Positions 494-62,169 of a DNA stretch of 64,000 nt are shown here, piece after piece. Position numbers and translations under genes: made by a program. The stretch spans positions 248,001-312,000 of the forward strand of contig NZ_SZVI01000013.1 of the NCBI RefSeq assembly GCF_013416775.1, given 5' to 3'. Every line of letters starts with the position of its first letter. The first letter of the stretch is position 1. Source of the DNA: Rhodoferax sp. BLA1 (lineage in GTDB: Bacteria; Pseudomonadota; Gammaproteobacteria; Burkholderiales; Burkholderiaceae_C). Below the pieces are notes generated by a model. The model had not been told where the DNA came from. It saw only the letters and a list, made by a program, of their open reading frames with translations, and made no database searches.

Positions 494-530
494 ATAGCTA
501 CCTGCCCTTTTCAATAAAGGGCTAGAGGCC
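494..530 (+). repeat. Dispersed palindromic element, copy 1 (intergenic)
   Basis: This copy is close to the consensus of a repeat found twelve times in the window: ATAGCTAC, two bases, then an inverted pair GCCCTT/AAGGGC around a 7-base loop, then TAGAGGCC. It sits between two convergent genes, 7 bp from the stop codon of the nitronate monooxygenase gene, so its 6-bp perfect stem could also help end transcription from either side. A second TGCTAC block lies just upstream at 481, as in several other copies. Confidence 0.85.
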
Positions 531-536
531 AATTTC

Positions 537-1496
537 TTATACAACACCTAGCAAACGCTCACGCGCTGCCGCGTACTCGCGTTTGAGCTGCGCCACAAAA
601 TCAGCCGTGCTCTGCACCTGGCTGACGGCGCCGATGCCTTGGCCACAGCCCCAGATGTCTTTCCAGGCTTTGGCCTTGTCACCGCCAAAATTCATCGCGC
701 TCGGGTCGCTCTCGGGCAGGTTCTCAGGGTCCAGACCGGCGGCGCGGATGCTGGGCGCCAGGTAGTTGCCGTGCACACCGGTGAACAGGTTGCTGTAGAT
801 GATGTCGTCGGAGTTGCTGGCCACAATCGCCTGTTTGTAGGCCTCTGACGCACGCGCCTCGTGGGTGGCGATGAAGGCCGAGCCAATGTAGGCAAAGTCC
901 GCCCCACAAGCTTGGGCCGCCAGCACCGCACCACCGCTGGCGATTGAGCCGCTGAGCACCAGCGGACCGTCAAACCACTGGCGGATTTCCTGCACCAAGG
1001 CAAACGGGCTTTTGACGCCAGCGTGCCCACCGGCACCTGCGGCCACCGCAATCAGGCCGTCGGCACCTTTCTCGATGGCTTTGTGGGCGTGTTTGTTGTT
1101 GATCACATCGTGCAACACCACGCCGCCGTAGCTGTGGGCGGCAGCGTTGATGTCTTCGCGCGCACCCAGACTGGTGATGATGATCGGCACCTTGTATTTG
1201 ACACACAGCGCCATGTCGTGTTCAAGCCGCTCATTGCTTTTGTGCACGATCTGGTTGATGGCAAAGGGTGCAGCGGGTTGCAGCGGGTGCGCCCGGTTGT
1301 GGGCAGCCAGCGCCTCGGTGATCTCGATCAGCCAGTCCTCCAACTGCTCGGCGGGTCGGGCGTTCAGCGCAGGCATGCTGCCCACCACACCGGCGATACA
1401 TTGGGCGATCACCAGCTGCGGGTTGCTGATGATGAACAGTGGTGAGCCAATCACCGGGAACGGCAAACGGTCAAGGGGCGTGGGGAGTCTGGACAT
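537..1496 (-). CDS. Nitronate monooxygenase (2-nitropropane dioxygenase family)
   Basis: An FMN-dependent TIM-barrel enzyme of about 319 residues that oxidises nitronates such as propionate-3-nitronate to the carbonyl compound and nitrite. The family signature GAGGHAGVKSPFALV carries the conserved catalytic-region histidine, and GPLVLSGSIASGGAVLAA followed by GADFAYIGSAF is the phosphate-binding end of the barrel. I chose the ATG at 1496 (MSRLPTPLD) because family members begin with this short proline-rich lead; a GTG at 1520 would add eight residues. It is the last gene of a same-strand series behind the acyl-CoA dehydrogenase and an alpha/beta hydrolase (30-bp gap), so it may be co-transcribed with etfBA. 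Physiological substrate is unknown. Confidence 0.85.
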   Translation of the reverse strand: MSRLPTPLDRLPFPVIGSPLFIISNPQLVIAQCIAGVVGSMPALNARPAEQLEDWLIEITEALAAHNRAHPLQPAAPFAINQIVHKSNERLEHDMALCVKYKVPIIITSLGAREDINAAAHSYGGVVLHDVINNKHAHKAIEKGADGLIAVAAGAGGHAGVKSPFALVQEIRQWFDGPLVLSGSIASGGAVLAAQACGADFAYIGSAFIATHEARASEAYKQAIVASNSDDIIYSNLFTGVHGNYLAPSIRAAGLDPENLPESDPSAMNFGGDKAKAWKDIWGCGQGIGAVSQVQSTADFVAQLKREYAAARERLLGVV

Positions 1497-1526
1497 AGGA
1501 TGACTTTTCTGAATGACCACAGCGGG

Positions 1527-2315
1527 TCAGTGACTTGGGTGCTTGATCCAGCCGCTGATCTGGTCCACCGCCTGGGCTTCCATACCGACATAACCGTGGT
1601 GATGGAAAGCCTCGCAGGGGCCGCTGCTGGGTTCGGTTCCACCATCGACTTCGATGTACTGTTTGACCGGTGCAGACACCAGTCGGCTGATCAAACGCTG
1701 CGCCGCAGCGGGTGGGGTGATGCGGCAGGCGTCGTGCTTGTGCTGAAAGATCAGAACAGGCACCGTGATGTCCTCCAGCGCAATGTCGACCACGGAGCCA
1801 CCCGGCTGCGATCCAGTGACGGTGGAACTCAGCACCACACCGGCAATCCGGGCGCCCAGTGCCACGCTGTTGGCAGCCGCGCTGAGGGTGCCCTGGCTGG
1901 TGCCGACCAGCCACACCGGAACGTTGCTGCGCTGGCCAATGTCATCCAAGATGGTGCGCACATCGGCCTGATGTTCGCCCGAGCGGCGAAACGCCGGGGT
2001 CATTTGTCTGGCGTCGTTCGGGTTGCCAACCAGGGCAACATTGAAGCCAGCACGCGCGAAATCGTCGCGCGAGCGGATCAGAAAGTTGCCTGATTGGGGC
2101 ACACCGCCCTTGAGCCCGATACCACCATGGCCACCCGCAAACAACAGCACCGTGGCCACGGCACCGTCACGCGGCATCCACCAGTAACTGATGCCCACAT
2201 CACCACGCGAGCTCAGGACCACCAGTCCGTCCTGTGCCATGGCCGAGGTCGCAGCCAAGCAGGCCAACAGCGCACCAAAGACCCAGCGCAGGGCCGAGTC
2301 TGGCCAGCGGCTCAA
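1527..2315 (-). CDS. Secreted alpha/beta hydrolase
   Basis: A 262-residue protein with an N-terminal hydrophobic segment ending in AMAQDG, a plausible signal peptide, so it is probably periplasmic. The nucleophile elbow GTSQG (around residue 137) contains the predicted catalytic serine, an acidic residue follows in the HKHDACR region, and FHHHGYVG near residue 240 gives the histidine. This is the alpha/beta hydrolase fold without a recognisable specific subfamily. The start is a TTG that overlaps the stop codon of the preceding acyl-CoA dehydrogenase gene (TTGA), suggesting translational coupling; no in-frame ATG exists before the signal peptide ends. Substrate is not predictable. Confidence 0.75.
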   Translation of the reverse strand: MSRWPDSALRWVFGALLACLAATSAMAQDGLVVLSSRGDVGISYWWMPRDGAVATVLLFAGGHGGIGLKGGVPQSGNFLIRSRDDFARAGFNVALVGNPNDARQMTPAFRRSGEHQADVRTILDDIGQRSNVPVWLVGTSQGTLSAAANSVALGARIAGVVLSSTVTGSQPGGSVVDIALEDITVPVLIFQHKHDACRITPPAAAQRLISRLVSAPVKQYIEVDGGTEPSSGPCEAFHHHGYVGMEAQAVDQISGWIKHPSH

Positions 2316-4102: not shown

Positions 4103-4199
4103 GCTTGTCTCCTGGTTTTTTTGAGGCTTGAGCGCACCAGTGCCCATGCTCTGGCGAAAAAAAAGGGCATCACATGGATGCCCTGGTAACCGGCTTGCC

Positions 4200-5135
4200 T
4201 TACAGGGCAGCCACCAGTTCCGGCACCGCAACGAACAGGTCAGCCTCCAGCCCGTAGTCGGCCACGCTGAAAATTGGTGCCTCGGGGTCTTTGTTAATGG
4301 CAACGATCACCTTGCTGTCCTTCATGCCTGCCAAGTGCTGGATGGCACCGCTGATGCCCGCTGCAATGTAGAGCTGGGGAGCGACGATCTTGCCGGTCTG
4401 GCCCACTTGCCAGTCGTTCGGTGCATACCCGGCATCCACTGCGGCGCGGCTGGCACCAATGGCGGCACCGAGCTTGTCGGCCAGCGGCACCATCACTTCG
4501 TTGAACTTTTCCTGAGAACCCAGAGCGCGGCCACCGCTGACGATGACCTTGGCGGCGGTGAGTTCGGGGCGGTCGTTCTTGGCGATCTCGCTGCCCAAAT
4601 AGGTGCTGCCACCCGTAACAGCCACAGCAGCTACCGTTTCAATAGCTACTGACCCTTGTACTGCTTGGGCTGCAGCATCAAAAGCTGTGGTACGCACGGT
4701 GATCACCTTGATCGTATCCAGGCTCTGCACGGTGGCAATCGCGTTGCCAGCGTAGATTGGACGCTCAAAGGTGTCGGGGCTGATGACTTTGCTCAGGTCA
4801 GAAATCTGACCGACATCGAGCTTGGCGGCCACACGTGGGGCGATGTTTTTGCCCGATGCGGTGGCTGCAAACAGGATGTGGCTGTAGCTGGGCGCCAGCG
4901 CCACCACCTGGGCCGTGACGTTTTCGGCCACACCATGGGCCAGGCTGTCAGCATCGATGTGGATCACTTTGGCCACACCGGCGACCTGGGCGGCGGCAGC
5001 GGCAACAGCAGCGGCGTTGGCGCCAGCCACCAGCACATGCACGTCACCACCGAGTTGGCTGGCTGCGCTGATGGTGTTCAAGGTGGCGGGCTTGAGATGG
5101 GTGTTGTCGTGTTCGGCAATAACAAGAGAGCTCAT
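4200..5135 (-). CDS. etfA: Electron transfer flavoprotein subunit alpha
   Basis: This 311-residue protein is the FAD-binding subunit of the EtfAB heterodimer, which carries electrons from acyl-CoA dehydrogenases to ETF:quinone oxidoreductase. The C-terminal FAD domain is clear: [50 protein letters not shown] and [16 protein letters not shown]. The start at 5135 has GGAAG upstream. The gene is 35 bp behind etfB. Residues about 154-164 are encoded by a copy of the dispersed palindromic element and read [13 protein letters not shown], at the hinge between the N-terminal domain and the FAD domain, a place that tolerates length variation. Apart from this insertion it looks normal. Confidence 0.95.
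4642..4675 (+). repeat. Dispersed palindromic element, copy 2 (inside etfA)
   Basis: The plus strand reads ATAGCTACTGACCCTTG, a short loop, then TTGGGCTGCAGC, matching the consensus element with some decay. A GCTAC block at 4630 also matches the outer part of the repeat. Because etfA is on the minus strand, the element is translated in antisense and contributes a short in-frame peptide without a stop codon. Confidence 0.75.
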
Positions 5136-5170
5136 GTGTCTTCCTTCAATCTGTGGGCTCAGGCGCTGGG

Positions 5171-5920: not shown

Positions 5921-5980
5921 AAAAACGTCTCTCCAAAGTAAAAATGAATGGCAAAACACACCGTGCACCGGTCAATTCCA

Positions 5981-5996
5981 TTGACGTGCACGTCAA
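5981..5996. promoter_or_regulatory. Perfect 16-bp palindrome, candidate LiuR-like operator
   Basis: TTGACGTGCACGTCAA is a perfect inverted repeat 61 bp upstream of etfB. It lies a few bases downstream of a TAAAAT sequence (minus strand, 6009-6004) that could serve as the -10 box, so a bound protein would block transcription. The shape resembles the binding motif I recall for MerR-family LiuR regulators of branched-chain amino acid degradation; that identity is an inference. Confidence 0.55.
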
Positions 5997-6081: not shown

Positions 6082-6112
6082 TTTTTAAGTATACCCACTG
6101 CTTGGCTTGTGC

Positions 6113-9294: not shown

Positions 9295-9628
9295 CCCCCG
9301 AATCGCCTTCGGCGCCTCCCCCTCAAGGGGGCGCACCCACTGGCCTGGCAAAGCCAGTTCCACGGGTGCCCTGGCTTAAAGCGCGGCAGCGACACCTGTC
9401 TCCGACTATGACTGCACCCCGAAGCGCTTCAGAAGCCTCCCCCTCAAGGGGGCGCACCCAGTGGCCTGGCCAAGCCAGTGCCACGGGTGCTCTGGCCTGA
9501 AGGCCGGTAGCGACACCTGAATGGCTCCCGACCGAAGCACCTCACAGGCCTCCCGCGCCAAGTGGCGCATCTGGTGGTCTGGCATCACCAGTGCCACAGC
9601 TGAGCTGACCTGGAGCCCGGTTGCGTCG
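9295..9628 (+). repeat. Three tandem degenerate ~115-bp repeats
   Basis: Three related units are seen: about 9295-9398, 9416-9519 and 9530-9628. The first two share CTCCCCCTCAAGGGGGCGCA, then a TGGCCTGGC..AGCCAGT..CACGGGTGC block and an ending AGCGACACCTG. The third is strongly decayed but keeps the order (CCTCCCGCGCCAAGTGGCGCA, TGGTCTGGCATCACCAGTGCCAC, GGTTGCGTCG). Inner CCCCCTCAAGGGGG is palindromic, so each unit can fold. The third unit lies within the start of the DUF58 reading frame. Confidence 0.75.
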
Positions 9629-10567
9629 CTACGAGCAAGGTTTGAGCGTTGGTGGCAGGCACGTTTGCCAGCATCCGACAGCGTGACTCTGACCCAGCGC
9701 ACGGTCTACATCCTGCCCACCCGCGCAGGCTGGATGCTGGCCCTGACCCTGCTGGTGCTGCTGCTGGCCTCCATCAACTACCAGCTCAACCTGGGTTACC
9801 TGCTGACCTTTTTGCTGGCCGGTTGTTCACTGGTGGCCATGCATGTGAGCCATGCCAACTTGCGTGGCATCACCATGAGCTTGATAGCACCTGACCCAGT
9901 ATTTGCGGGGGCTAGAGCCGTTTTTGACATCCAACTGCTGAACCCCAGCCAGCGCACCCGACCGGCCCTGGCGCTGGCCATCCAGGGCAGCCAGCAGTGG
10001 GTGTATACCGATCTGGCGCCGCTGTCGCAGGCACGCGTGCAACTGGCCTGTTTACCGGGCCAGCGTGGCCTGCACCCGCTGCCTACGGTGCGTGCCCAGA
10101 CCCTGTTTCCGCTGGGCAGTTTTTGTGTCTGGACCCTGTGGCGACCAGCCAGCCAGTTACTGGTCTACCCGCTCCCTGAAACCCAGCCGCCGCCCCTGCC
10201 CGGCGGGTCATCCGAGACCGGCCACGGCCCGACCCGTACCGCACCGCATCACCACGGCGAGCCAGACAGCATCCGGCCCTACCGGCGTGGAGACCCCTTA
10301 AAAAACATCCTGTGGAAACAGGTGGCCAAAACCGGCGCGCTGGTCAGCCGCGACAGTGTGGCGGCGCAGCAGCATGACCTCTGGCTCAGCCGCCCGCTGA
10401 CCGGGCTGGCGCATCCTGAGCAGCAGCTCAACCGCCTGTGTGCATGGGTGCTGCGGGCCGACCAGCTGGGCCTGCGTTACGGCCTGCGCTTGAACGGCCA
10501 GGACATCGGCCCCGACCACGGCCCACAACACCTGCAACGCTGCCTGCGTGCGCTGGCTCTCGCATGA
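9521..10567 (+). CDS. DUF58 domain protein
   Basis: A 348-residue membrane-anchored protein of the DUF58 family that accompanies MoxR ATPases and TgpA-type transglutaminases. TLTQRTVYILPTRAGWMLAL opens the conserved part; two hydrophobic helices follow at about residues 68-108, and the DUF58 core is GEPDSIRPYRRGDPLKNILWK near residue 245. An in-frame TGA directly precedes the ATG at 9521 and no other ATG exists before the first helix, so the first ~35 residues come from the third unit of the tandem repeat and have no family similarity that I recognise. Residues 122-134 (LIAPDPVFAGARA) come from a palindromic element. The 3' end overlaps the next gene by ATGA. Confidence 0.85.
   Translation: MAPDRSTSQASRAKWRIWWSGITSATAELTWSPVASLRARFERWWQARLPASDSVTLTQRTVYILPTRAGWMLALTLLVLLLASINYQLNLGYLLTFLLAGCSLVAMHVSHANLRGITMSLIAPDPVFAGARAVFDIQLLNPSQRTRPALALAIQGSQQWVYTDLAPLSQARVQLACLPGQRGLHPLPTVRAQTLFPLGSFCVWTLWRPASQLLVYPLPETQPPPLPGGSSETGHGPTRTAPHHHGEPDSIRPYRRGDPLKNILWKQVAKTGALVSRDSVAAQQHDLWLSRPLTGLAHPEQQLNRLCAWVLRADQLGLRYGLRLNGQDIGPDHGPQHLQRCLRALALA
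9884..9920 (+). repeat. Dispersed palindromic element, copy 3 (inside DUF58 gene)
   Basis: The sequence ATAGCACCTGACCC, a loop, GGGGGCTAGAGCCG follows the consensus with decay in the central stem. It is translated in the sense direction in the phase that gives I-A-x-x-P...R-A, the same phase as the copies in mltB, comEC (first) and the patatin gene. Confidence 0.65.
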
Positions 10568-12585: not shown

Positions 12586-13745
12586 AACAACAATTGACCA
12601 TGCCTTTGCCAGCCTTGAGACCTTTACTTGCACTGCTTTTGATAGCTGTCACCGCTTTACCCATCAGGGCTGAGGCCAAAAAACACCCACATCATCCGAA
12701 AAAAGCTGCCAAAACGGTGGCCAGCGCTCCGGTGCCCGGCCCGAGTTACGCCCAGCGCAGTGACGCAATGGCAGCCGCCGACGAGATCGCCCAGCAGCGC
12801 GACCTGGACCCGGCCTGGGTGCGCCAGACGCTGGCCCAGGCACGCTACATCCCCGCCATTGCCCAGGCGGTGACACCACCCGCCGTGGGTGTGGCCAAAA
12901 ACTGGCAGCTGTACCGCAGCCGTTTTGTCGAGCCCAAACGCATCCGCGCGGGTGTCGTCTTCTGGCAATTGCACCGCGACACCCTGCTGCGGGCGCAAGC
13001 CCATACCGGTGTGCCGGTGGACATCCTGCTGGGCATCATTGGTGTGGAAACCATCTATGGCCAGCAAATGGGCACTTACCGGGTGCTGGATGCGCTGGCC
13101 ACGCTGGCCTTTGACTTTCCCCAAAGCCACCCACGCGCCGCCACACGCAGCCAATACTTCAAAGGGGAACTCGCGCAGTTTCTGAGCATGATGCAACGTG
13201 GTGACATCGACCCGACGTTGTGGCGCGGCAGTTATGCCGGGGCGCTGGGCCTACCGCAGTTCATGCCCAGCAGCTGGCACAAACATGCGGTGGACTTTGA
13301 CGCGGACGGCAAGGTCGACCTGTTCACCAGCCCCGGGGATGCGATTGGCTCGGTGGCCAACTACCTCGCCGCTTTTGGCTGGCAGCCCGGGCAGCCGACC
13401 CACTTTGCTCTGAGTTTTGACAGCACCCGGCTCGACCTGCCCGCGCTGATGGCGCCAGACATCCTGCCGACCTTCAGTGTGGCGGAATTTCAGGCCAAAG
13501 GTATAGTGCTGGAGGCGGCTGCCCAGTCCTACCCCGGTAAACTGGCGCTGATCGAGCTGCAAAACGGTGATGCACCGGCGAGCTACCTGGCAGGCACCGA
13601 AAACTTTTACGTGATCACCCGCTACAACTGGAGCAGTTATTACGCGATGGCCGTGATTGAACTGGGTCAAGCGGTCTTGAAAGTGGCCACCCAGCTGGAT
13701 GCAGCCAACAGCTTTGAAGCCATCAAACCGACCAGCACGCCGTGA
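12582..13745 (+). CDS. mltB: Lytic murein transglycosylase B
   Basis: A 387-residue periplasmic muramidase that cleaves the glycan strand with formation of 1,6-anhydro ends. The catalytic glutamate lies in ILLGIIGVETIYGQQMGTY, and GSYAGALGLPQFMPSSW is the substrate-binding block of the SLT_2/MltB family. The TTG at 12582 overlaps the stop of the transglutaminase gene; an ATG at 12600 is the other choice. The N-terminal signal segment LLALLLIAVTALPIRAEA is partly encoded by a palindromic element (12642-12677), so the signal sequence and processing region are built from repeat DNA. I see no lipobox cysteine, so the mature enzyme is probably soluble. Confidence 0.9.
   Translation: MKQQLTMPLPALRPLLALLLIAVTALPIRAEAKKHPHHPKKAAKTVASAPVPGPSYAQRSDAMAAADEIAQQRDLDPAWVRQTLAQARYIPAIAQAVTPPAVGVAKNWQLYRSRFVEPKRIRAGVVFWQLHRDTLLRAQAHTGVPVDILLGIIGVETIYGQQMGTYRVLDALATLAFDFPQSHPRAATRSQYFKGELAQFLSMMQRGDIDPTLWRGSYAGALGLPQFMPSSWHKHAVDFDADGKVDLFTSPGDAIGSVANYLAAFGWQPGQPTHFALSFDSTRLDLPALMAPDILPTFSVAEFQAKGIVLEAAAQSYPGKLALIELQNGDAPASYLAGTENFYVITRYNWSSYYAMAVIELGQAVLKVATQLDAANSFEAIKPTSTP
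12642..12677 (+). repeat. Dispersed palindromic element, copy 4 (inside mltB signal peptide)
   Basis: ATAGCTGTCACCGCTTTACC followed by ATCAGGGCTGAGGCC matches the consensus element. Read in the sense strand it encodes IAVTALPIRAEA, the end of the hydrophobic core and the likely signal-peptidase region of MltB. Confidence 0.75.
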
Positions 13746-13761
13746 ATTTGCTACATCAAAC

Positions 13762-13796
13762 GTAGCTAGATACCCTTATGAAATAAGGGCTAGGTG
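13762..13796 (+). repeat. Dispersed palindromic element, copy 5 (between convergent genes)
   Basis: GTAGCTAGATACCCTTATGA followed by AATAAGGGCTAGGTG matches the consensus, with a 7-bp stem CCCTTAT/ATAAGGG. The outer TTGCTAC block is also present at 13748. It lies between mltB and the convergent HDOD gene, and the CTA at 13790-13792 inside the element is the stop codon (TAG) of the HDOD gene. The stem could help stop transcription from both sides. Confidence 0.8.
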
Positions 13797-14659
13797 ACAA
13801 TCACACCCTCAAACACCGGAAACAACTCGTCAACCCAGGTTTCGACCTCTTCGGCGCCAATCTGCAGAAACGCCAGACACTGCGCTCCCGATTTTTCCCA
13901 CTCACGCTGGTTCTGGACACCTTCGTGATGAGCCACCAGGTGGTCGGCGATGGCCGCGATGGCCACCAGCTGGCGCACCTGCAGCGGCACACGGGCGTCG
14001 GTCAGTGACGAAAAATCATGGTGCAGCCGCACCGCATAGACCACCTCGGCGGGCAGGCGCCAGGTTTTAGCCACAATCGCACCCACCACCGCGTGGTCGG
14101 TGCGGTGGGCAGCGTTTTCGGTCTGGACAAAGGTGCGGTCCTGGCGCGCCATGGCCTCTACCAAGGTGCCGCTGTAGCCGCGCACACCTTGCAGCATCAC
14201 CGGGATGCCCACATGGAAAAACAGGCCGCAGGTTTTGCACACATCCAGGTCCAGCCCGTACATCTGCCCGGCAATGTGGGCCATAGCCAACGATCGACGG
14301 GTGGACGACTCCCAAAAATGCTCGATCAGTGTCGGGTCAATGCGAATCGCGTTGCGCAGCAAAAAACCGGTCAGGATGCTGGCCGTGGGTTTGACACCCA
14401 GCATGCTGATCGCCTGCGCCACCGAATGCACCGGCTCGCGGCGCGCGTACAAAGAGCTGTTGGCCACCTTGATCAACGCGGCGGCCATCGCCACGTCGGC
14501 ACCTGCAATCTCGGCCACCCGTTGCGGGTTGGGGTCAGCCTGGGCCAGCTCGTCTTGCAATTGCACCAGCAGCTGCGGACAGGGTGGAATGACAATATCT
14601 TTGACCGGACCCGCGTCACGCGCGGCATCCAGTTCACGGTTCAAGGCTCGGATGGACAT
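13790..14659 (-). CDS. HDOD domain protein
   Basis: A 289-residue cytoplasmic protein made almost entirely of one HDOD domain: PPCPQLLVQLQDEL, ADVAMAAALIKVANSSLYAR, VHSVAQAISMLGVKPTASIL and MAHIAGQMYGLDLDVCKTCGLFFHVGIP. HDOD domains look like HD phosphohydrolases but lack the metal residues and are used for signalling; here the HD pair is replaced (FFHVG). AGGAG precedes the ATG. It is 58 bp behind the large GGDEF-EAL gene, so it may belong to the same transcript and pass on or modulate its signal. Its stop codon is provided by a palindromic element. Confidence 0.85.
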   Translation of the reverse strand: MSIRALNRELDAARDAGPVKDIVIPPCPQLLVQLQDELAQADPNPQRVAEIAGADVAMAAALIKVANSSLYARREPVHSVAQAISMLGVKPTASILTGFLLRNAIRIDPTLIEHFWESSTRRSLAMAHIAGQMYGLDLDVCKTCGLFFHVGIPVMLQGVRGYSGTLVEAMARQDRTFVQTENAAHRTDHAVVGAIVAKTWRLPAEVVYAVRLHHDFSSLTDARVPLQVRQLVAIAAIADHLVAHHEGVQNQREWEKSGAQCLAFLQIGAEEVETWVDELFPVFEGVIVT

Positions 14660-20682: not shown

Positions 20683-23151
20683 TCAGGGCACCGGGTGGTG
20701 CCAATAATGCCGATCCACCTGACGCTGACAGCGCACAACCTGCGCCACCCACGACCGCCATGTCGCAGCACCACAATGGGGCGTATCAAACAGCTGGACA
20801 TCAAGCGTTTGATAACGCACCAAAACAGGGTGCGCCGGATGACCAAAGCGGTTTCTGTAACCCGCTTGCACCAGCGCAATGCGCGGTTGCACGGCTGTCA
20901 GAAAGGCCAAACTGCTGGAGGACTTGCTGCCGTGGTGCGGCACCAGCAGCACATCGGCGCGCAATGTGGACACGGCACCGGGCGGGCCACTGGCCAGCGC
21001 CTGCACCAATTGGGCCTCCTGCGGCTGCTCAATGTCTCCCGCCAGCAAGGCCGTCTGCTGGCCGTTGGTGATGCGCAGCACACAACTCAGGGCGTTGGGC
21101 TTGGTGAGCCGACCATAGTCGGCGGCCTGCGGGTGCAACACCTCAAAGTCCACCCTGTCCCACTGCCAGCGCTGGCCTGCCACACAGCGCTGGGCCGGGT
21201 CTGGTGTGACCAGGCCGTCCTCACCGGCCATCGAACTGATCAGCTGGGCCTGCGGCTGCATCGTCAACACCGCCTGGGCGCCACCGCTGTGATCGCTGTC
21301 GCGGTGGCTCAGCATCACGGTGTCGAGCCGCACTCCCAAAGCCCGCAGCAATGGCACCAGCACACGCTGGCCGGCATCACTCTCGCTGCTGAAGCGTGGG
21401 CCCGCGTCGTACAACAAAGTATGGTGCTGGGTGCGCACCAGCACCGCACTGCCCTGCCCGATGTCTGCAGCCAACAGCTCAAACTGACCAAGTGGCGGCC
21501 TGGGTGCCTGCCACAACAGCACCGGCAGCACCAGCGGCAGTGCGGCCAGACGCAGGCTCCAAGGCAGACGCAAGGCCAGCAACACACCTCCCAAGACCGC
21601 TGCCGCGCCAGCCCACCACGGTGCCTTGGCCACCCAGAGCACCGCCCACGGCCAGGCCGCAAGCCAGCGCAACACCTCGCCCAACAGGTCAATCACTCCA
21701 GCAGCCCAGGTCCACAAGCCGGGCACCACCACCCCGACCATGGCCAGCGGTGTCACCAGCAGCGTCACCAGCGGAATCGCCAACACATTCGCCAGCAAAC
21801 CCACCAGAGAGACCTGACCAAACAACAACAGGCTCAAGGGTGTGAGCGCCAGCGTGATCACCCATTGCTCCCGCAACATCGCAACAAATCGGTCTCTAGC
21901 CCTTTTATCGATTGGGCTGGTAGCTCCCGAATCTGAAGCAAACAACACACCCACCGCCACAAAACTCAGCCAGAAGCCCGCCTGCAACAGGGCCCACGGG
22001 TCGAGCACCACCACCATCAAACAGGCCAGCAGCCAGACCTGCGGCCATGGCCAGCGCAGACCCAGCAAACGCAAGACACCCACGGTGGCCAGCATCAGCA
22101 CCGTGCGTTGGGCGGGCACCCCCCAGCCGCTGAACAGGGCGTACAACGCCGCCAGCACCAAGCCACCGAGCAAGGCCGCGCTCGGTGCACTCAGCCACAG
22201 GCACAAGCGCGTGGAGCGCCGCCACACACCACCCACCAGCGCGGCGGCCAACCAGGCAAACATCGTGATATGCAGGCCAGAAATGCTCATCAAATGGGCC
22301 ACACCGGTGGCGCGAAACACATCCCAGTCAGAGCGCTCAATCGCGCCTTGGTCACCCGTGACCAAGGCCGCCAACACACCGGCAGCGCGTGGGTCGGGCA
22401 CCCTGGAAAAAATGGACGACCGCACCTGTTGACGCAAACGGTCCACCGGGTGCTGCCAGGTTTGCCCCAGACGCTGGGGCGGCGGGTCACGGCGGCCAGC
22501 GCGCACATAACCGATGGCCTGCACCCCCCGCTCCCACTGCCACAGCTCGTAGTCAAAGCCATGCGGGTTGAGGCCACCATGGGGCGCTTTGAGCCGCACA
22601 TTGAACTGCCAACGCTCACCCGCCTGCACCTCAGACGGTGTGCGTTGCACCTCCCCCGACGGATCACTCGCGCCATCCCCCTGGCCAAACACACCGCTGT
22701 ACCAGGCCAGCTCTAGGCGCTGCGGCAGCGCCACCGGCTGCCCATCGAGCCGGGCTGCGTCCTGCTCAAAACGAAAACGCAAACCCCCTTCAAAAGGCTG
22801 CGGCAAACCGGCCACCACACCGGTGAGCGCGATGTCACGTCCCTCCAGCGCTGGCGCCAAGGCCGAGTCGACAAACAGCGTGGCACGCCAGCCGGTGACA
22901 CCCACCGCCAACACCGCAAAAGCCAGGCAAGTGGCGAGCGCCACCGCGCGCCCATATGCTTTTAAATATATAGCTATCAGCCCATATCCTATAAGAGCCA
23001 GAAGCACAAAAAGCATATAAATGGCAGACGGCCACAGTGCCGCCTGCTGCAGCTGCAGGGCGCTGCCCGCCAGGATCCCCAAGAGCGCAGGCGTCAAGCC
23101 CGGCAGACGCTGCGCTGTCGTGTGGTGAGAAGGGCCATGAAGCTCGGGCAT
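20683..23151 (-). CDS. comEC: ComEC/Rec2 DNA uptake channel
   Basis: An 822-residue inner-membrane protein that carries single-stranded DNA into the cytoplasm during natural transformation. The order is standard: N-terminal helices and DUF4131-like region, the Competence domain (GVAHLMSISGLHITMFAW, PAQRTVLMLATVGVLRLL), then a C-terminal metallo-beta-lactamase domain (LLAADIGQGSAVLVRT, VMLSHRDSDHSGG, LVPHHGSKSSSS). The lactamase HxDxDH-type motif is SHRDSDH. Two palindromic elements lie in the gene without breaking it: one encodes part of a helix at residues 50-61, the other a loop at about 409-420. Start ATG at 23151. Confidence 0.93.
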   Translation of the reverse strand: MPELHGPSHHTTAQRLPGLTPALLGILAGSALQLQQAALWPSAIYMLFVLLALIGYGLIAIYLKAYGRAVALATCLAFAVLAVGVTGWRATLFVDSALAPALEGRDIALTGVVAGLPQPFEGGLRFRFEQDAARLDGQPVALPQRLELAWYSGVFGQGDGASDPSGEVQRTPSEVQAGERWQFNVRLKAPHGGLNPHGFDYELWQWERGVQAIGYVRAGRRDPPPQRLGQTWQHPVDRLRQQVRSSIFSRVPDPRAAGVLAALVTGDQGAIERSDWDVFRATGVAHLMSISGLHITMFAWLAAALVGGVWRRSTRLCLWLSAPSAALLGGLVLAALYALFSGWGVPAQRTVLMLATVGVLRLLGLRWPWPQVWLLACLMVVVLDPWALLQAGFWLSFVAVGVLFASDSGATSPIDKRARDRFVAMLREQWVITLALTPLSLLLFGQVSLVGLLANVLAIPLVTLLVTPLAMVGVVVPGLWTWAAGVIDLLGEVLRWLAAWPWAVLWVAKAPWWAGAAAVLGGVLLALRLPWSLRLAALPLVLPVLLWQAPRPPLGQFELLAADIGQGSAVLVRTQHHTLLYDAGPRFSSESDAGQRVLVPLLRALGVRLDTVMLSHRDSDHSGGAQAVLTMQPQAQLISSMAGEDGLVTPDPAQRCVAGQRWQWDRVDFEVLHPQAADYGRLTKPNALSCVLRITNGQQTALLAGDIEQPQEAQLVQALASGPPGAVSTLRADVLLVPHHGSKSSSSLAFLTAVQPRIALVQAGYRNRFGHPAHPVLVRYQTLDVQLFDTPHCGAATWRSWVAQVVRCQRQVDRHYWHHPVP
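21891..21926 (-). repeat. Dispersed palindromic element, copy 6 (comEC, loop)
   Basis: On the plus strand GGTCTCTAGCCCTTTTATCG followed by ATTGGGCTGGTAGCT is the reverse complement of the consensus. ComEC is read on the minus strand, so this copy is translated in sense and gives GATSPIDKRARD, a short hydrophilic stretch between helices. Confidence 0.8.
22969..23003 (+). repeat. Dispersed palindromic element, copy 7 (comEC, membrane helix)
   Basis: TATAGCTATCAGCCCATATCC then TATAAGAGCCAGAAG follows the consensus with decay, and the outer TGCTTTTAAATA block is present just before it. It is translated in antisense and encodes LALIGYGLIAIYLK, a hydrophobic segment within the N-terminal membrane region. 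Confidence 0.65.
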
Positions 23152-24937: not shown

Positions 24938-25014
24938 TGGGGTGGCTGATGGGGCTCGAACCCACGACAACAGGAATCACAATCCTGGACTCTACCAACT
25001 GAGCTACAGCCACC
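24938..25014 (-). tRNA. tRNA-His (GTG anticodon)
   Basis: The minus strand folds into a full cloverleaf: acceptor GTGGCTG/CAGCCAC, D arm with AGCTCAGTTGGTAGAG, anticodon stem CAGGA/TCCTG with loop TTGTGAT (anticodon GTG), and T arm with GGTTCGAGCCC. The extra G at position -1 opposite a C discriminator is the identity mark of tRNA-His. The CCA end is encoded. No integrated element is seen next to it. Confidence 0.95.
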
Positions 25015-40029: not shown

Positions 40030-40143
40030 GCCATCACCACAGCACATCGCTTGAAACTCATCAGACCCACTCCCTACTGTTCAATCCAAAGTGATTGGCG
40101 CCGCAGACTATGGCGGCAAAAAACCGGCGATACAAGCATTTTT

Positions 40144-40180
40144 GGCCTGTAGCCCTTGTATCACTTGGGCTATTAGCTAT
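40144..40180 (-). repeat. Dispersed palindromic element, copy 8 (intergenic)
   Basis: GGCCTGTAGCCCTTGTATCA then CTTGGGCTATTAGCTAT is the reverse complement of the consensus, nearly identical to the copy within the patatin gene at 48731. It lies between the sigma-factor promoter region and the CBS-domain gene. Confidence 0.85.
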
Positions 40181-40375
40181 GTTTTTTAAAGTATCCCACA
40201 AACACCCTCAAGAGTTCGCCGGCAAGCAAGGTGTGATGTTGAGCAGCATCAAGGTACCAGAACATGGGGTGCCAATCAGCTACCGTGCCGAGTCAAGCGG
40301 CAACTGGTCCGAGACACGCGGCGCAATGCCACTGTGGGTGCGGGCAAGATCAGGCGCTCGCTGCGCCTGCAACAC

Positions 40376-41346: not shown

Positions 41347-41538
41347 GACGCATCTCCTTTAGCGCTGACGTGGGCAGTGACGCCAGTCGACACCCGATCT
41401 TCATCGGTGCTTGCCGGTGCCCCACTTTGCCATCAACGACATGAACCAGGGTCTCGGTAACGGTCAACCACTGGGTTGTCCTTGCCGCCGAAAGCTTACG
41501 CGTTTTGCCTTGGGTCTGCAAACACGGCACAGGTCTTC

Positions 41539-41705
41539 CTCACAATTTCCGCACCACCCCCATCTCCGGTCGCGCCAGCCACTGCGCAAACTCGTCAGCC
41601 AGCTGCTGACCGGCTGACACGGCGGCGCCAACGCAGGTGTTTGTCCAGCCAACCCGGCACCACGCTGCGCTGGAAGTGGGGGTACAAAACCAGTGCCGCT
41701 GTCTC
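41539..41705 (-). pseudogene. Patatin gene remnant (3' end, internal deletion)
   Basis: The plus strand here is closely similar to 48402-48488 and 48634-48710, the 3' end of the intact patatin gene, including the stop codon region and CAGGTGTTTGTCCAGCCAAC. About 145 bp between these two parts are missing, which also breaks the frame. Similarity stops near 41700. This is a dead fragment of a second patatin copy or of a rearrangement. Confidence 0.8.
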
Positions 41706-48243: not shown

Positions 48244-48401
48244 CGGTTGAACGGGTACATAAGCTGTGTGCCCTGCCCAAACTTCCGCGGGCTTGGCCAG
48301 CTCAATGCCCATCTCATGGGTAACTATGCGTGTTGATGGCCCATTCGGTGGCGCAGATACGGGACGCAGCCCCAACGCCCCAGCTACCCTGCTGCACTCC
48401 C

Positions 48402-49571
48402 TCACAACACCCGCACCACCCCCATGTCCGGGCGGTCCAGCCACTGCGCGAACTCTTCAGCCAGCTGCTGACTGGCTGACACGGCGGTGGTCCAGGCCTT
48501 GACGCGGCCTGACAGATCGGCGCCGTAGTGGGTGAAATCGGTGCGATCAGGCAGTTTGCCGTTGGGCAGGGTTTTGACCCACTCGGGGTTGGGGGCCAGC
48601 AGCAGCAGGTTGTCCAGAAACGGTGTGGCACGGTGGCGCCAGCGCAGGTGTTTGTCCAGCCAACCCGGCACCACGCTGCGCTGGAAGTGGGGGTACAACA
48701 CCAGCGCCGCCCCGCTTTGTGGATCTTTTTGACCTGTAGCCCTTGTATCACCTGGGCTACCAGCTATGTTTCTGGTAGTACCCAACGCTGCCGCCCAGTT
48801 CAGATGCAGGTGGTAGTCGGTCACACCACCGTCCCAATACGCACCGGTTGGGGCGCCTTCAATGTTGTGCACCGCCTCCAGCACAAACGGGATCGAGCAG
48901 CTGGCCTGCATCGCGGGCAAGAAGTTGGCCTCGGTTAAGCCGACCTGATGTGTCGGGTAGTCGCTCGCATCAAACGGCAAGCTGGCCAGCTGATGTGGCA
49001 CGCCCGGCAGCGGGCTGGAGAACACCACGCGTTGCAGCCACAGGCCCAGCGCCCGCCGCGCCAGCAGGTTGCTGGCAAAGGCCGCGCCATATCCGGCTGC
49101 GGTGGACCAGCCCGCTTCACGCTTGAGCAGGCCACGCCCGTGCGCTGTGAGCAGATGCAGCCGGTAACGCGGGTGCTGCAGCAGCTCGGTGATGCGCCCG
49201 CCATAAAAGGCCTGCAAGTTCTGACCAAACACCGCGCTGACCCGTGTCGCGGCAGGTCGTTTTTCACCGGGCAGCAATGCGTAGTTCTGGTGGATGTAGT
49301 CGTGCTCAAGTCGTTGGAGTGCGGCCACCGGCTCGTTCAGGCAGGCGGTAGCCATACGCCAGGCACCAATTGAGGCGCCCACCAGCGCTACCGTTTGGTT
49401 CGACTGCGGCAACCAGTGACCAAAAATGAACTGGTCCAGCGGCCCCAGGATCAGGCCCTTGGGGCCGCCCGCTGCGGCCGGTATCGCGGCAATATCCTGG
49501 CTGTGCAGGCCGTGGTGGCGCAGGTGCGCCAGCGCGCGCGGGCCAGCGTAAATATGCAGGGCTTTTGTCAT
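48402..49571 (-). CDS. Patatin-like phospholipase
   Basis: A 389-residue serine lipid hydrolase. AAAGGPKGLILGPLDQF is the oxyanion-type glycine block, VGASIGAW contains the nucleophile serine (GxSxG), and the aspartate of the catalytic dyad is in WDGGVTDYH. Substrates are phospholipids or acyl lipids. The ATG at 49571 gives a normal N-terminus, although the ribosome site is weak. Residues about 268-280 (IAGSPGDTRATGQ) come from a palindromic element located between the DGG block and LVLYPHFQRSVVPGWLDKHL. A dead copy of the 3' end lies at 41539-41705. Confidence 0.88.
   Translation of the reverse strand: MTKALHIYAGPRALAHLRHHGLHSQDIAAIPAAAGGPKGLILGPLDQFIFGHWLPQSNQTVALVGASIGAWRMATACLNEPVAALQRLEHDYIHQNYALLPGEKRPAATRVSAVFGQNLQAFYGGRITELLQHPRYRLHLLTAHGRGLLKREAGWSTAAGYGAAFASNLLARRALGLWLQRVVFSSPLPGVPHQLASLPFDASDYPTHQVGLTEANFLPAMQASCSIPFVLEAVHNIEGAPTGAYWDGGVTDYHLHLNWAAALGTTRNIAGSPGDTRATGQKDPQSGAALVLYPHFQRSVVPGWLDKHLRWRHRATPFLDNLLLLAPNPEWVKTLPNGKLPDRTDFTHYGADLSGRVKAWTTAVSASQQLAEEFAQWLDRPDMGVVRVL
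48731..48767 (-). repeat. Dispersed palindromic element, copy 9 (inside patatin gene)
   Basis: GACCTGTAGCCCTTGTATCA then CCTGGGCTACCAGCTAT is the reverse complement of the consensus and differs from the intergenic copy at 40144 at only a few bases, so this insertion is recent. It is translated in sense and adds about 12 residues in frame. Confidence 0.85.
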
Positions 49572-52218: not shown

Positions 52219-54657
52219 TCAGTTTCCCAAGCCTTTGAGTTTGGCAAATGCGGATGACATAGCCGTGGATTGTGGCGCATGTGGTGCAGCCCCCGCGCCA
52301 CGCGAACGCTGCTGTGCGCTGGCACCCTGAAAGCGGTTGTCGCCCGCGCCGCTGCGTGCGGGTGGCGTGCCGAGCTTCATGGTCAGAGCGATGCGTTTAC
52401 GCGCCACATCCACCTCGACCACCTGCACCTTGACGATGTCACCGGTCTTGACCACCTCGCGTGCGTCATTGACAAATTTGTGCGCCAGTTGGCTCACATG
52501 CACCAGGCCATCCTGGTGCACCCCCAGGTCGACAAAAGCGCCAAACGCGGCCACATTGCTGACCGTGCCCTCCAGAATCATGCCCTCTTTCAGGTCGCGG
52601 ATGTCTTCCACACCGTCGTTAAAACGCGCCACCTTGAAATCCGGCCGTGGATCGCGGCCCGGTTTTTCGAGTTCCGCCAGGATGTCTTTGACGGTGATGA
52701 CCCCAAACCGCTCGTTGGCAAACAACTCGGGGCGCAAGGTTTTGAGCATCTCGGCACGGCCCATCAGCTCAGCCACTTCTCTACCGGTCTTGGCCAGGAT
52801 CTGCTCGACCACCGGGTAGGTTTCGGGGTGCACACCGGTCATGTCCAACGGGTTGGCACCACCACGGATGCGCAAAAAGCCCGCACATTGCTCAAAGGTC
52901 TTGGCGCCCAGGCCGGTGACCTTGAGCAAATCCTGGCGGCTGGCAAAGGCACCATTGGCCTCACGCCAGCGCACCACCGCCTTGGCCACACCGGCACTCA
53001 GGCCCGAGACGCGGCTCAAGAGCGGCACACTGGCCATGTTCAGGTCCACACCCACCGAGTTGACACAGTCCTCCACCACGGCTTCCAGTGTTTTGGCGAG
53101 TTCACTCTGGTTCACATCGTGCTGGTACTGGCCCACACCAATCGACTTGGGGTCGATCTTGACCAGCTCGGCCAACGGGTCCTGCAGGCGCCGGGCGATG
53201 CTGGCAGCACCCCGCAGGCTCACATCCACATCGGGCATTTCTTGTGAGGCAAATTCGCTGGCCGAGTAGACCGAGGCACCGGCCTCAGACACAACTACTT
53301 TTTCAATAGCTACCTGCCCTTGTCCATTCTGGGCTGCAGGCGATTTAGCCATCAATTTGATGAGGTCGGCGGCCAATTTGTCGGTCTCGCGGCTGGCGGT
53401 GCCGTTGCCGATCGCAATCAGATTCACGCCGTGTTTTTGGCACAACGCAGCCAGAACGTGCAATGAGCCGTCCCAGTCCTTGCGTGGCTCGTGCGGGTAG
53501 ACGGTGCTGGTGTCCACCAGCTTGCCGGTGGCGTCCACCACCGCCACCTTGACGCCGGTGCGGATGCCGGGGTCCAGCCCCAGCACCACCCGTGGGCCGG
53601 CCGGTGCGGCCAGCAACAGGTCACGCAGGTTGTCGGCAAAGACCTTGATCGCCACCGCCTCGGAGGCCTCACGCAGCCGCGCAAACAAATCGCGCTCGGT
53701 CGACAGGCTCAGCTTCACGCGCCAAGTCCAGGCGACACATTTGCGGATCAGATCGTCGGCAGCACGGCCTTTGTGGCTCCAGCCCAGTTTGAGCGCGATG
53801 CGGCCTTCAGCCAGCGAGACCACCTGGCTTGCTCTTGTTTTTGTAACTACAGGACCTTTATCAATAAGGGCTGAAGGCTGATTTGATGCTTGACCACTGG
53901 CTACCGGTGGTTCTGGCAACACCAGCTTGGTCTCCAGAATCTCCAGGCTACGGCCGCGAAACACCGCCAGCGCGCGGTGTGATGGCACGCGGGCAATCGG
54001 CTCGTCGTAGTCAAAATAATCACGGAACTTGGCCACCTCGGGGTCAGACTCGTTTTTGCCGGCCATCAGGCTGCTCTTGAACAGGCCCTGCTCCCACAAC
54101 CAGCCACGCAGGTCTTGCACCAGCGCGGCGTCCTCGGCCCAGCGCTCACTCAAGATGTCGCGCACACCATCGAGCACCGCTTGCACCGTGGTGAAGTCGT
54201 CACCGGCTTCGGTTTTCTCTGTCTTCACATAGGCCTGCGCCTGCGCCGCCGGGTCCAGGCTCGGGTCGGCAAACAAAGCATCAGCCAGCGGTTCGATGCC
54301 CGCCTCGCGTGCGATCTGGCCCTTGGTGCGGCGTTTTTGTTTGAACGGCAGGTACAGGTCTTCGAGCTCCTGCTTGGTGGGTGCGGCCAGCAGTGCGGCC
54401 AGCAAGGCCGGAGTCATCTTGCCCTGCTCGTCGATGCTCTTGATCACCGCAGCGCGGCGGTCGCGCAGGTCGCGCAAATAACTCAGGCGGGCTTCCAGTT
54501 CACGCAGCTGGATGTCGTCCAGGCCGCCTGTGACTTCCTTGCGGTAGCGGGCAATAAAGGGAACGGTGGCGCCACCGTCGAGCAACTCCACCGCAGCCGC
54601 CACCTGGCGTTCCTGCACCCGTATTTCTTGCGCCAATTGCGCGATGATTTTCTGCAT
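52219..54657 (-). CDS. tex: Tex RNA-binding transcription accessory protein
   Basis: An 812-residue cytoplasmic protein with the Tex order: N-terminal helical domain (RYRKEVTGGLDDIQLRELE), YqgF/RuvC-like domain (VLGLDPGIRTGVKVAVVD), helix-hairpin-helix repeats (RVSGLSAGVAKAVV) and an S1 RNA-binding domain (EGMILEGTVSNVAAFGAFVDLGVHQDG). The gene carries two palindromic elements: residues about 260-272 (QPSALIDKGPVVTKT) and 439-451 (AAQNGQGQVAIEK). Both are between domains or in loops and keep the frame. The ATG at 54657 has no strong ribosome site. Tex affects transcription elongation and RNA turnover and is essential in some bacteria. Confidence 0.95.
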   Translation of the reverse strand: MQKIIAQLAQEIRVQERQVAAAVELLDGGATVPFIARYRKEVTGGLDDIQLRELEARLSYLRDLRDRRAAVIKSIDEQGKMTPALLAALLAAPTKQELEDLYLPFKQKRRTKGQIAREAGIEPLADALFADPSLDPAAQAQAYVKTEKTEAGDDFTTVQAVLDGVRDILSERWAEDAALVQDLRGWLWEQGLFKSSLMAGKNESDPEVAKFRDYFDYDEPIARVPSHRALAVFRGRSLEILETKLVLPEPPVASGQASNQPSALIDKGPVVTKTRASQVVSLAEGRIALKLGWSHKGRAADDLIRKCVAWTWRVKLSLSTERDLFARLREASEAVAIKVFADNLRDLLLAAPAGPRVVLGLDPGIRTGVKVAVVDATGKLVDTSTVYPHEPRKDWDGSLHVLAALCQKHGVNLIAIGNGTASRETDKLAADLIKLMAKSPAAQNGQGQVAIEKVVVSEAGASVYSASEFASQEMPDVDVSLRGAASIARRLQDPLAELVKIDPKSIGVGQYQHDVNQSELAKTLEAVVEDCVNSVGVDLNMASVPLLSRVSGLSAGVAKAVVRWREANGAFASRQDLLKVTGLGAKTFEQCAGFLRIRGGANPLDMTGVHPETYPVVEQILAKTGREVAELMGRAEMLKTLRPELFANERFGVITVKDILAELEKPGRDPRPDFKVARFNDGVEDIRDLKEGMILEGTVSNVAAFGAFVDLGVHQDGLVHVSQLAHKFVNDAREVVKTGDIVKVQVVEVDVARKRIALTMKLGTPPARSGAGDNRFQGASAQQRSRGAGAAPHAPQSTAMSSAFAKLKGLGN
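53306..53341 (+). repeat. Dispersed palindromic element, copy 10 (inside tex)
   Basis: ATAGCTACCTGCCCTTGTCC then ATTCTGGGCTGCAGGC matches the consensus; the outer ACTACTTTTTCA block is present upstream. Tex is on the minus strand, so the copy is translated in antisense and gives AAQNGQGQVAIE, close to the peptide made by the etfA copy. Confidence 0.8.
53843..53879 (+). repeat. Dispersed palindromic element, copy 11 (inside tex)
   Basis: GTAACTACAGGACCTTTATC then AATAAGGGCTGAAGGCT matches the consensus with a CCTTTAT/ATAAGGG-type stem; the outer TGCTCTTGTTTTT block is upstream. Antisense translation gives SALIDKGPVV. Confidence 0.75.
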
Positions 54658-59321: not shown

Positions 59322-59349
59322 GCCTGCAAATTGGGTGGACAACCCCAAC

Positions 59350-59361
59350 ATTGTTAACAAT
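59350..59361. promoter_or_regulatory. 12-bp palindrome upstream of the degenerate kinase gene
   Basis: ATTGTTAACAAT is a perfect inverted repeat 150 bp before the GTG start, in the 190-bp gap after the response-regulator gene. It could be an operator; no regulator can be named. Confidence 0.3.
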
Positions 59362-59511
59362 CCCTTACTTTTTTTGTCAGACACAAATTTTGGGGATGCA
59401 CTGAGCTGCACCGAAAATACTGGGGTAAGCTGCATCAACACACCCACCCCCTGCAGGCAGAACATGCATCCAGTTCCCCGGCGCTTTCGCTAGTCTGAAC
59501 CAAGGCCTGTT

Positions 59512-61515: not shown

Positions 61516-61521
61516 GCGCCG

Positions 61522-62025
61522 TCACTCGGGGCGCAGCATCTCCAGGTGCGGTATGCCATCTTCCAGGTAGTGGGTACCGGTGTCGACAAAACCGTGCTGG
61601 GCATAAAAGTGCGTGAGTTGCAACTGGGCGCCGATGCGAATGGGCTGCGGGCCCCAGACCTGGCTGATAGCCGCAATCGCCTGGGTGACAAGGGCGTGGC
61701 CCAAACCGCCGCCACGGGCGCTCGGGCGCGTCAGCACCCGCCCGAAACTGGCCTCGGGAAATTTCACCCCGGCTTCAAAACAGCGCGCATAGGCCTGCAA
61801 CTCACCATGTTGCACGCCCAGCAAATGCATCGCCTGTCGGTCGGCACCGTCCATGTCCTGGAACAGGCACTGCTGCTCCACCACAAACACCTCGCTGCGC
61901 AGGCGCAGCACCTCGTATAACTCGTACACGCGTAAATCGTTAAACGCCAGCAAACGCCATACCGGCGCGGCGGTCTCACCGTGCTTGGCAGCGGCCGAGC
62001 CAATCGACCAGAGTTTGAATGTCAC
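61522..62025 (-). CDS. GNAT family N-acetyltransferase (ElaA-like)
   Basis: A 167-residue acetyltransferase. The ElaA-type pattern is VYELYEVLRLRSEVFVVEQQCLFQDMDGAD, then LQAYARCF and the acetyl-CoA loop VLTRPSARGGGLGHALV, and FYAQHGFVDTGTHYLEDGIPHLEM. The acceptor is unknown. GTG start with AGGAGG 8 bases upstream. It converges on the degenerate kinase gene, only 6 bp apart. Confidence 0.9.
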   Translation of the reverse strand: MTFKLWSIGSAAAKHGETAAPVWRLLAFNDLRVYELYEVLRLRSEVFVVEQQCLFQDMDGADRQAMHLLGVQHGELQAYARCFEAGVKFPEASFGRVLTRPSARGGGLGHALVTQAIAAISQVWGPQPIRIGAQLQLTHFYAQHGFVDTGTHYLEDGIPHLEMLRPE

Positions 62026-62132
62026 GGTACAACCTCCTGTGTGAGCGCATCACCGCTGCGCGAAAAACCCCCACCTGCACCATTACACCGGTGCACTTGC
62101 CCGTCAAAACACCACAAATCACTTTCAAATAC

Positions 62133-62169
62133 ATAGCTATAGACCCTTATTCCAAAAGGACCAGAGGCC
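62133..62169 (+). repeat. Dispersed palindromic element, copy 12 (intergenic)
   Basis: ATAGCTATAGACCCTTATTC then CAAAAGGACCAGAGGCC matches the consensus. It lies 15 bp past the stop codon of the kinase-HDOD gene, upstream of the GNAT gene on the same strand. Confidence 0.85.

Follow-up and report, generated by a model that had tools for sequence, protein, structure and literature searches.

A dispersed dyad motif of Rhodoferax sp. BLA1 that behaves as a maintained DNA recognition motif

Dispersed motifs found between and within bacterial genes include the DNA uptake sequences and uptake signal sequences (DUS/USS) of Neisseriaceae and Pasteurellaceae, the Rickettsia palindromic elements (RPEs), the repetitive extragenic palindromes (REPs) with their associated transposases (RAYT), and the betaproteobacterial repeat BRE. 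In Acidovorax ebreus TPSY a statistical motif, GCTTAT(N)5AAGCG, has been described with 114 copies, of which 107 are intergenic and 5 lie in genes. According to the available part of that account it is mostly intergenic, convergent or co-oriented and near genes, and the number of motif pairs was largest, at 140, in Rhodoferax ferrireducens (PMC5217627). Here we analyse a palindromic element in a stretch of 64,000 nt of Rhodoferax sp. BLA1 (contig NZ_SZVI01000013.1, positions 248,001 to 312,000, forward strand; hereafter the window), for which a preliminary description had listed twelve copies, inside and outside genes.

The element, 46 to about 64 bp long and built round a dyad core, behaves as a DNA recognition motif. 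It occupies the same chromosomal sites in close species and is kept up there, and its copies in genes originated largely by substitution, for the most part in reading phases that spare the protein. An uptake-type drive acting on an accreting, maintained DNA motif is our best guess at the cause, one we hold tentatively and rate as somewhat short of probable.

Form, abundance and reading phase of the motif

The refined consensus is nTTnATAGCTATCA-GCCCTT-N7-AAGGGC-TAGAGGCCAATTT, with a palindromic (dyad) core. Copies were scored with a weight matrix of 46 columns built from 19 exact-core copies (alignment A1); matrix and consensus derive partly from copies later used in the tests. Columns in which half or more of 75 copies agree on one base span -9 to +54 in matrix coordinates, and hence reach beyond the matrix. 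In 16 of these 75 copies an outer GCTAY box lies within the 24 nt that surround and precede the matrix start, at one fixed position in 13 of them; downstream it is present in 1 of 75.

Each of the twelve listed positions in the window carries the motif, and the window sites with a matrix score of at least 8 are those twelve, with no thirteenth. With a threshold score of 10, the profile scan that had been proposed as a check picked up 91 sites over 464 kb of genomic sequence, and 0 once that sequence was reversed. Searched across all 4.46 Mb, the exact core GCCCTT-N7-AAGGGC gave 219 sites and its backward reading 0; by extrapolation the whole genome may hold about 880 copies. A covariance model (CM) searched up to E = 10 matched 11 of the 12 window copies, several of them weakly, and missed the copy in etfA. 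Spacing between copies is indistinguishable from exponential (Kolmogorov–Smirnov p 0.29 and 0.15), and the motif is dispersed.

Of the 91 copies, 49 are intergenic, 29 lie in genes and 13 at gene edges, as called by our own gene caller; in-gene counts depend on the sample and are 36 of 102 in 532 kb. In-gene copies are frequently degenerate. That the weak ones are real is supported by the reversed control together with three further comparisons. Six synonymous codon shuffles of the 416 called genes gave 1–4 sites at score 10, against 29 real ones, and 0–1 at score 20, against 22; nine relatives selected as motif-poor, in part with this same matrix, gave 1 site in 187 kb; and relatives can score higher at the same site, as in etfA, which scores 10 here and 22, 27 and 18 in the related genomes G079, G004 and G024, respectively.

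The preliminary description had the element read in genes in only two phases. This stands as a preference, which 23 of the 29 in-gene copies follow (17 in the antisense phase A2 and 6 in the sense phase S2), and not as a strict rule, since 6 copies are in other phases (A0 2, S1 2, S0 1, A1 1). The proposed comparison of phase use with chance gave p = 5e-7 against an expectation of one third. Among the 49 intergenic copies the stop-free fraction is 0.67 for A0, 0.63 for S2, 0.39 for A2 and 0.02–0.16 for the rest, and stop avoidance alone would place 51% of copies in A2 or S2, compared with 79% observed. We considered mere stop avoidance as the source of the bias and rejected it, as it accounts for part only (p = 0.0025 against a null of stop avoidance alone); A0 is open as often as S2 and yet has just 2 in-gene copies. 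The phase rule is thus partly trivial, owing to stops, and partly a choice of tolerable peptides. In A2 the motif is read as a peptide of about NxPLAxxxKGQxAI, which is found in soluble proteins (RecB NLPLALINQGQTAIN, PurL NQALALLEQGQSATN and Tex NQPSALIDKGPVVTK) and, in a hydrophobic version, in membrane proteins (ComEC FVLLALIGYGLIAIY and MurJ IWLLALILIGSAAIY).

Origin in genes and maintenance at shared sites

The preliminary description compared the in-gene copies with RPEs, that is, with a mobile block inserted cleanly in frame. As expected of such a block, the 29 copies in called open frames are read in frame in unrelated genes, with the recurrent A2 peptide. Insertion of the whole element would add 15 residues (46 nt) or 21 residues (64 nt). 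We compared the 29 genic copies with stretches from other genomes of the genus. An aligned partner was available for 15 of them, and for 13 a partner lacking the motif (matrix score below 0). At 12 of these 13 sites the length difference is below 15 aa, and at 6 it is within 2 aa of every motif-lacking partner: etfA, the DUF58-like gene, both comEC sites, the second purL site and a glutamine-synthetase-like gene, the last being a weak site (score 14, a single partner at 44% identity). The length of etfA is at most 1 aa from that in the motif-lacking genomes G006 and G061, the comEC site at 21886 shows no difference in 8 of 8 partners, G006 and G061 included, the other comEC site (22966) -1 to +2 aa in 9 of 9, and the DUF58-like site 0 aa in 8 of 8.

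The sole site that fits insertion of a whole element is in the patatin-like gene, at +21 aa against G065 and +5 against G061. Next to it in size is the tex site at 53839, in a variable linker, with -2 to +13 aa against 11 motif-lacking genomes and +13 in 5 of the 11. The other tex site (53302) is 7 aa longer than in 13 motif-lacking genomes and equal in length to the other 16 partners.

Such a comparison would miss an insertion that is old and has since decayed in relatives without the motif, and we therefore aligned eight chosen host proteins with solved homologues. For MurJ, LpxB and KsgA the alignment to a distant solved protein runs across the motif without a gap; EtfA has a gap of 1–2 residues within it and ornithine carbamoyltransferase one of 3. 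The alignments reach the second PurL site and one tex site (the first tex site is outside the aligned stretches), and the aligned part of the CysN-like protein does not include the motif. Partial motifs of graded strength are also seen at one and the same site across relatives in comEC, purL and the DUF58-like gene. For comEC the scores, at constant length, are 48, 40, 40, 32, 27, 22, 8, -7 and -13, our own 40 included.

Orthologue lengths, solved homologues and graded scores at constant length together indicate that the motif was probably written into existing coding sequence at many sites, with small indels at flexible places. Insertion of the genic copies in the manner of RPEs is largely refuted, in spite of the patatin and tex lengths, and of all the accounts weighed here it is the most improbable.

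Maintenance was followed in three close species, our own genome (G000), G079 and G004. Of our 102 copies, 40 could be assigned a position in both of the other two, with 0 absences (two low scores among the placed copies are partial segments of one recB site). No presence/absence breakpoints were found between the closest species, as every placeable copy is shared. A large syntenic block in G079, assumed from tex, was also tried; the region is rearranged, and about 25 kb of 400 kb aligned.

At the 40 sites, species-unique substitutions in the 30 strong columns number 29 toward the consensus, 95 away from it and 19 neutral. With the mutation spectrum of the flanks the neutral expectation is 8.4 toward, 119.3 away and 15.3 neutral, and 29 toward-changes were reached in 0 of 1000 simulations. 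The excess is present in each lineage (10, 7 and 12 toward-changes against 3.1, 2.0 and 3.4 expected) and in each class of site (intergenic 7 against 1.6, genic 13 against 3.9, edge or unclassified 9 against 2.9). In these counts the polarity of one lineage is not strict, and the result is the same in all three. Consensus bases change at 0.095 per column and the 15-nt flanks at 0.178 per column. The substitutions show maintenance, without equilibrium.

The coordinates of the window copies are collected in Table 1. The eight copies previously named as genic do lie in genes, with strand and phase as described. Strand required correction for three window copies (21886, 40139 and 48726), which are on the minus strand, the other nine being on the plus strand. 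As for the gene names, Pfam supports those of etfA, comEC and tex and places patatin under its cut-off. The DUF58-like gene has no Pfam hit, and its name, like that of mltB, is the one used in the preliminary description. The mltB copy lies near the N-terminus of its open reading frame (ORF), in a signal-peptide-like stretch LLIAVTALPIRAEAKK. The gene caller chose a later start, so this copy is classed as intergenic, and the longer ORF reads through the motif.

Table 1. Positions and scores of the twelve motif copies in the window
Copy	Positions	Strand	Phase	Matrix score (bits)	CM score (bits)
Intergenic, exact core	490..535	+		60.3	56.4
etfA (gene 4200-5135, minus)	4638..4683	+	A2	10.3	
DUF58-like gene (9683-10567, plus)	9880..9925	+	S2	12.3	
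mltB (ORF 12582-13745; name from the preliminary description)	12638..12683	+	S2	30.0	
Between convergent genes, overlaps 3' end of ORF 13790-14659	13758..13803	+		27.2	
comEC (gene 20683-23082, minus)	21886..21931	-	S2	40.5	
comEC, second copy, hydrophobic stretch FVLLALIGYGLIAIY	22966..23011	+	A2	37.0	
Intergenic	40139..40184	-		30.0	
Patatin-like gene (48402-49571, minus)	48726..48771	-	S2	24.2	
tex (gene 52219-54657, minus)	53302..53347	+	A2	30.9	
tex, second copy, variable linker	53839..53884	+	A2	45.3	
Intergenic	62129..62174	+		41.4	

Some neighbouring features of the window may be recorded here. Direct repeats of 61–91 nt (84–94% identical) at 40139-40199, 41535-41699, 48397-48710 and 48726-48786 connect the patatin-like region with 40.1–41.7 kb, with a motif copy on either side; they look like a broken partial duplication. 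A tandem triplet of ~103 nt (9296-9632; 85% and 62% identity to the first unit) stands just ahead of the DUF58-like gene region and at its beginning. Rfam gave a single match at gathering score across the window, a tRNA gene at 24941-25013 (-).

Dialects and the candidate recogniser

Dialects were called from the third stem pair (columns 16 and 30, both neutral in the scoring). This pair is C-G in 65 of 82 copies in our own genome, 55 of 70 in G079, 17 of 21 in G004, 16 of 21 in G024 and 10 of 13 in G069, and G-G in 6 of the 7 copies of G025. Two genomes are mixed, G010 with 9 G-G and 8 G-C of 20 copies and G005 with 8 C-G and 6 G-G of 16. Among the matches listed, 35 of 47 non-seed copies have G-C, on contigs named Acidovorax, Simplicispira, Giesbergeria and others, and the named hosts of this dialect include Acidovorax, Simplicispira, Giesbergeria, Comamonas, Ottowia and Rhodoferax. 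At 9 orthologous sites our own copies have C in column 16 in 8 cases, and those of G010 have G in all 9; against G005 the picture is mixed, with C-G in both genomes at 7 of 13 sites. Old sites thus differ in concert between species at one position, as expected if the specificity of a recogniser changed, and we infer the order G-C, then G-G, then C-G.

Distribution was surveyed with model R1; being tuned to the C-G dialect, it underestimates the others. Within the genus it matched 19 of 36 genomes, in other families of the order 0 of 24 and, under stricter filters, 29 of 150 genomes (25 of 141 genera) across the family. An exact pattern match in viral contigs gave 1 for one dialect and 0 for the other.

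Growth in place, renewal toward the consensus, indifference to strand and to RNA pairing, and concerted dialects argue for a trans-acting recogniser, which would favour motif-matching alleles in transmission or fitness. By analogy with Neisseria and Haemophilus, the likeliest recogniser would be the DNA-uptake machinery of natural transformation. Fragments matching the motif would be taken up, then recombined back more often, and a change in the specificity of the recogniser would account for the different third stem bases that species show at the same loci (GCGCTT/AAGCGC, GCGCTT/AAGGGC and GCCCTT/AAGGGC). To our knowledge, biased uptake in transformation is the known process that acts in this way without benefit at the single site.

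The indifference to RNA pairing bears on another idea of the preliminary description, a stem-loop RNA as the source, and more generally on an RNA hairpin (a terminator or a protector of mRNA 3' ends) under structural selection. The median distance of 15.5 nt between non-genic copies and the nearest gene 3' end is what such a hairpin would lead one to expect. In 85 copies scoring at least 20, however, the paired fraction of the six core stem pairs equals the expectation from independence (third pair, 0.85 against 0.85), so that these pairs do not covary; an Rfam search of the window found no family matching the motif; genic copies are mostly antisense (20 of 29); and both orientations occur downstream of genes (27 sense and 37 antisense relative to the neighbouring gene). 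We regard an RNA hairpin as very unlikely, and the dyad looks as though it is recognised as double-stranded DNA. Orientation relative to GC skew is likewise unbiased, at 43 to 48, and on this ground we rejected a polar motif of the KOPS or Chi sort.

The placement of copies relative to genes recalls REPs, and a family of palindromes once spread by a RAYT-type transposase and now degraded, whose genic copies were overwritten or converted, would account for several observations. Non-genic copies stand close to 3' ends and are scarce at divergent promoters, with 38 placed between genes in tandem, 26 between convergent pairs and 2 between divergent ones. Where an intergenic region carries the motif, it is longer than its motif-lacking counterparts. 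The only Y1_Tnp gene of the genome (a 234 aa ORF, stretch L025 1459-2163, +) is overlapped at its 3' end by a motif copy (2158-2203, -; score 39). REPs inside recBCD genes are known from other bacteria (PMC3733652), and here (stretch L015 8254-15302, -) recB has two motif copies and recC one. Against this, a RAYT-like Y1_Tnp gene occurs in 53 of 60 genomes of the genus regardless of the motif, including 16 of the 17 without an R1 match, and its presence gives no support to the transposase-carried mobile unit suggested earlier as the source. An extragenic position at 3' ends, as in REPs, points both ways: 66 of 102 copies lie outside genes, most of those with a neighbouring 3' end close to it, but 36 are inside genes. 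The GTAG that belongs to the definition of REPs does not stand directly at the foot of the stem, several conserved proteins show no gain in length, and the excess of changes toward the consensus remains. A REP-like family is, in our judgement, distinctly unlikely, and what probability it keeps it owes chiefly to the longer intergenic regions and to the clustering at 3' ends. Origin and upkeep may, however, differ: the intergenic copies may be insertions, and intergenic dispersal by copying is compatible with genic accretion by drive.

The main rival is a chromosomal binding site for a dimeric nucleoid or chromosome-organising protein, with each of hundreds of sites under selection and without a transmission drive. 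The dyad without covariation, the in-place origin, the maintenance and the concerted dialects fit any trans-acting DNA recogniser, and the unbiased orientation and near-exponential spacing pose no conflict. Such a protein would, on the other hand, imply selection at each of hundreds of sites for a very long motif in proteins such as MurJ, LpxB and KsgA, and 17 of the 36 genomes of the genus have no match to R1, a model tuned to one dialect. We consider a binding site of this kind unlikely.

Avoidance of foreign DNA was also considered, as an uptake signature. In 106 bins of 5 kb from our own genome (L005-L024, L126-L128, L131 and the window) the AT-rich motif is denser at higher local GC, climbing from 0.067 per kb in the 3 bins below 57% GC to 0.276 per kb in those of at least 62%. 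At least five of ten proteins looked up in a motif-poor low-GC stretch are, however, core genes (bamA-, rseP-, dxr-, cdsA- and tsf-like).

Several observations count against the uptake-type drive. Known uptake sequences are 10-mers in Neisseriaceae, with 943 to nearly 6,000 copies per genome (PMC3630211), and have a 9 bp core in Haemophilus; the motif here is longer and, at the extrapolated number for 4.46 Mb, sparser. In Neisseria, according to the available part of one study, uptake sequences are argued to arise often from recombination and not from point mutation (PMC2397512). Copies outside genes or at their edges make up 62 of 91, and among 64 copies with a neighbouring 3' end 54 are within 50 nt of it, which suits terminators and REPs too. 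Six genic sites (both in tex, both in recB, recC and the first in purL) range from -2 to +13 aa. Compared with its solved homologue, Tex is 10 aa longer at the motif and PurL 7 aa longer at its second site, a site at which the PurL of genus members lacking the motif is of equal length. The gain in intergenic regions is a median of +35 nt in 9 comparisons from four regions, with a median of 0 in 144 controls, though 4 of the 9 concern the uncertain mltB start (the other five give +10 to +76 nt). Finally, away-changes outnumber toward-changes at the shared sites, in a comparison where picking the sites in our own genome inflates the away-changes in both relatives.

We know of no uptake sequence as long as this motif. 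The full proposal is that an uptake-type drive in Comamonadaceae acts on a dyad motif several times longer than known uptake sequences, has rewritten MurJ, LpxB, PurL, RecB, RecC, ComEC and Tex in place, and has had its dialect switched one stem arm at a time. We advance it as possible, and more cautiously than the drive itself. If it is true, a large environmental family carries a self-recognition DNA tag that shapes conserved protein sequences; the in-between dialects (G-C, G-G, C-G at one stem pair) would make testable the long-standing question of how a genome-wide recognition motif changes and yet keeps its function; and orthologous loci would let one follow how recogniser specificity evolved. 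Should the recogniser prove to be a chromosome-organising protein, the case still shows that palindromes lying in frame in genes may have arisen otherwise than by insertion, and this matters for the reading of palindromes in recBCD and similar genes elsewhere.

Relation to known systems

As far as our literature search goes, the in-place origin, maintenance and dialect shift of the motif are new. The search, in which subscription journals were thinly covered and supplementary tables fell outside, found no DNA uptake sequence described for Comamonadaceae, and no match when Comamonadaceae or Acidovorax was paired with terms for palindromic elements or interspersed repeats. The accessible text of PMC2755013 makes no mention of the motif. 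The A. ebreus motif agrees in sequence and spacing with the GCGCTT-N7-AAGCGC dialect, and its account, in the part available, was published without a mechanism, in-place origin or dialects (PMC5217627). The same source gives ATAGCT(N)22CAAAAG for Polaromonas naphthalenivorans CJ2, with a spacing of 22 that is off the consensus here, so that kinship is at best possible.

Like BRE of Bordetella and Comamonadaceae, the motif is a dispersed betaproteobacterial repeat that is sometimes found in genes. BRE is, however, about 90 bp long, GC-rich (69% in Bordetella), often tandem and present in at most 29 copies per genome (PMC3110155), whereas the motif measures 46–64 bp, is dispersed and has a GC fraction of 0.33–0.57 in CM matches with E < 0.01. 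With RPEs it shares the palindromic repeat in frame within unrelated genes (PMC10969869). RPEs are inserting blocks of about 150 bp, unlike the genic copies here with their small length differences. Small palindromes near gene 3' ends, some of them in DNA-repair genes, are common to the motif and to REP/RAYT systems (PMC3733652), from which it differs in that its presence is independent of Y1_Tnp and several genic copies have no gain in length.

Compared with DUS/USS the motif is 46–64 bp instead of about 10, has its dyad within one copy and is sparser. The short core of ~10 bp is also absent, since strong consensus (at least 65%) extends over 30 of the 46 columns in 85 copies. An overrepresented motif at shared loci with species dialects is seen in both; as in Neisseriaceae and Pasteurellaceae, hundreds to thousands of copies stand at shared loci in and outside genes, occur in dialects and are kept against mutation, and a stop codon limits the usable frames (PMC2397512, PMC3630211).

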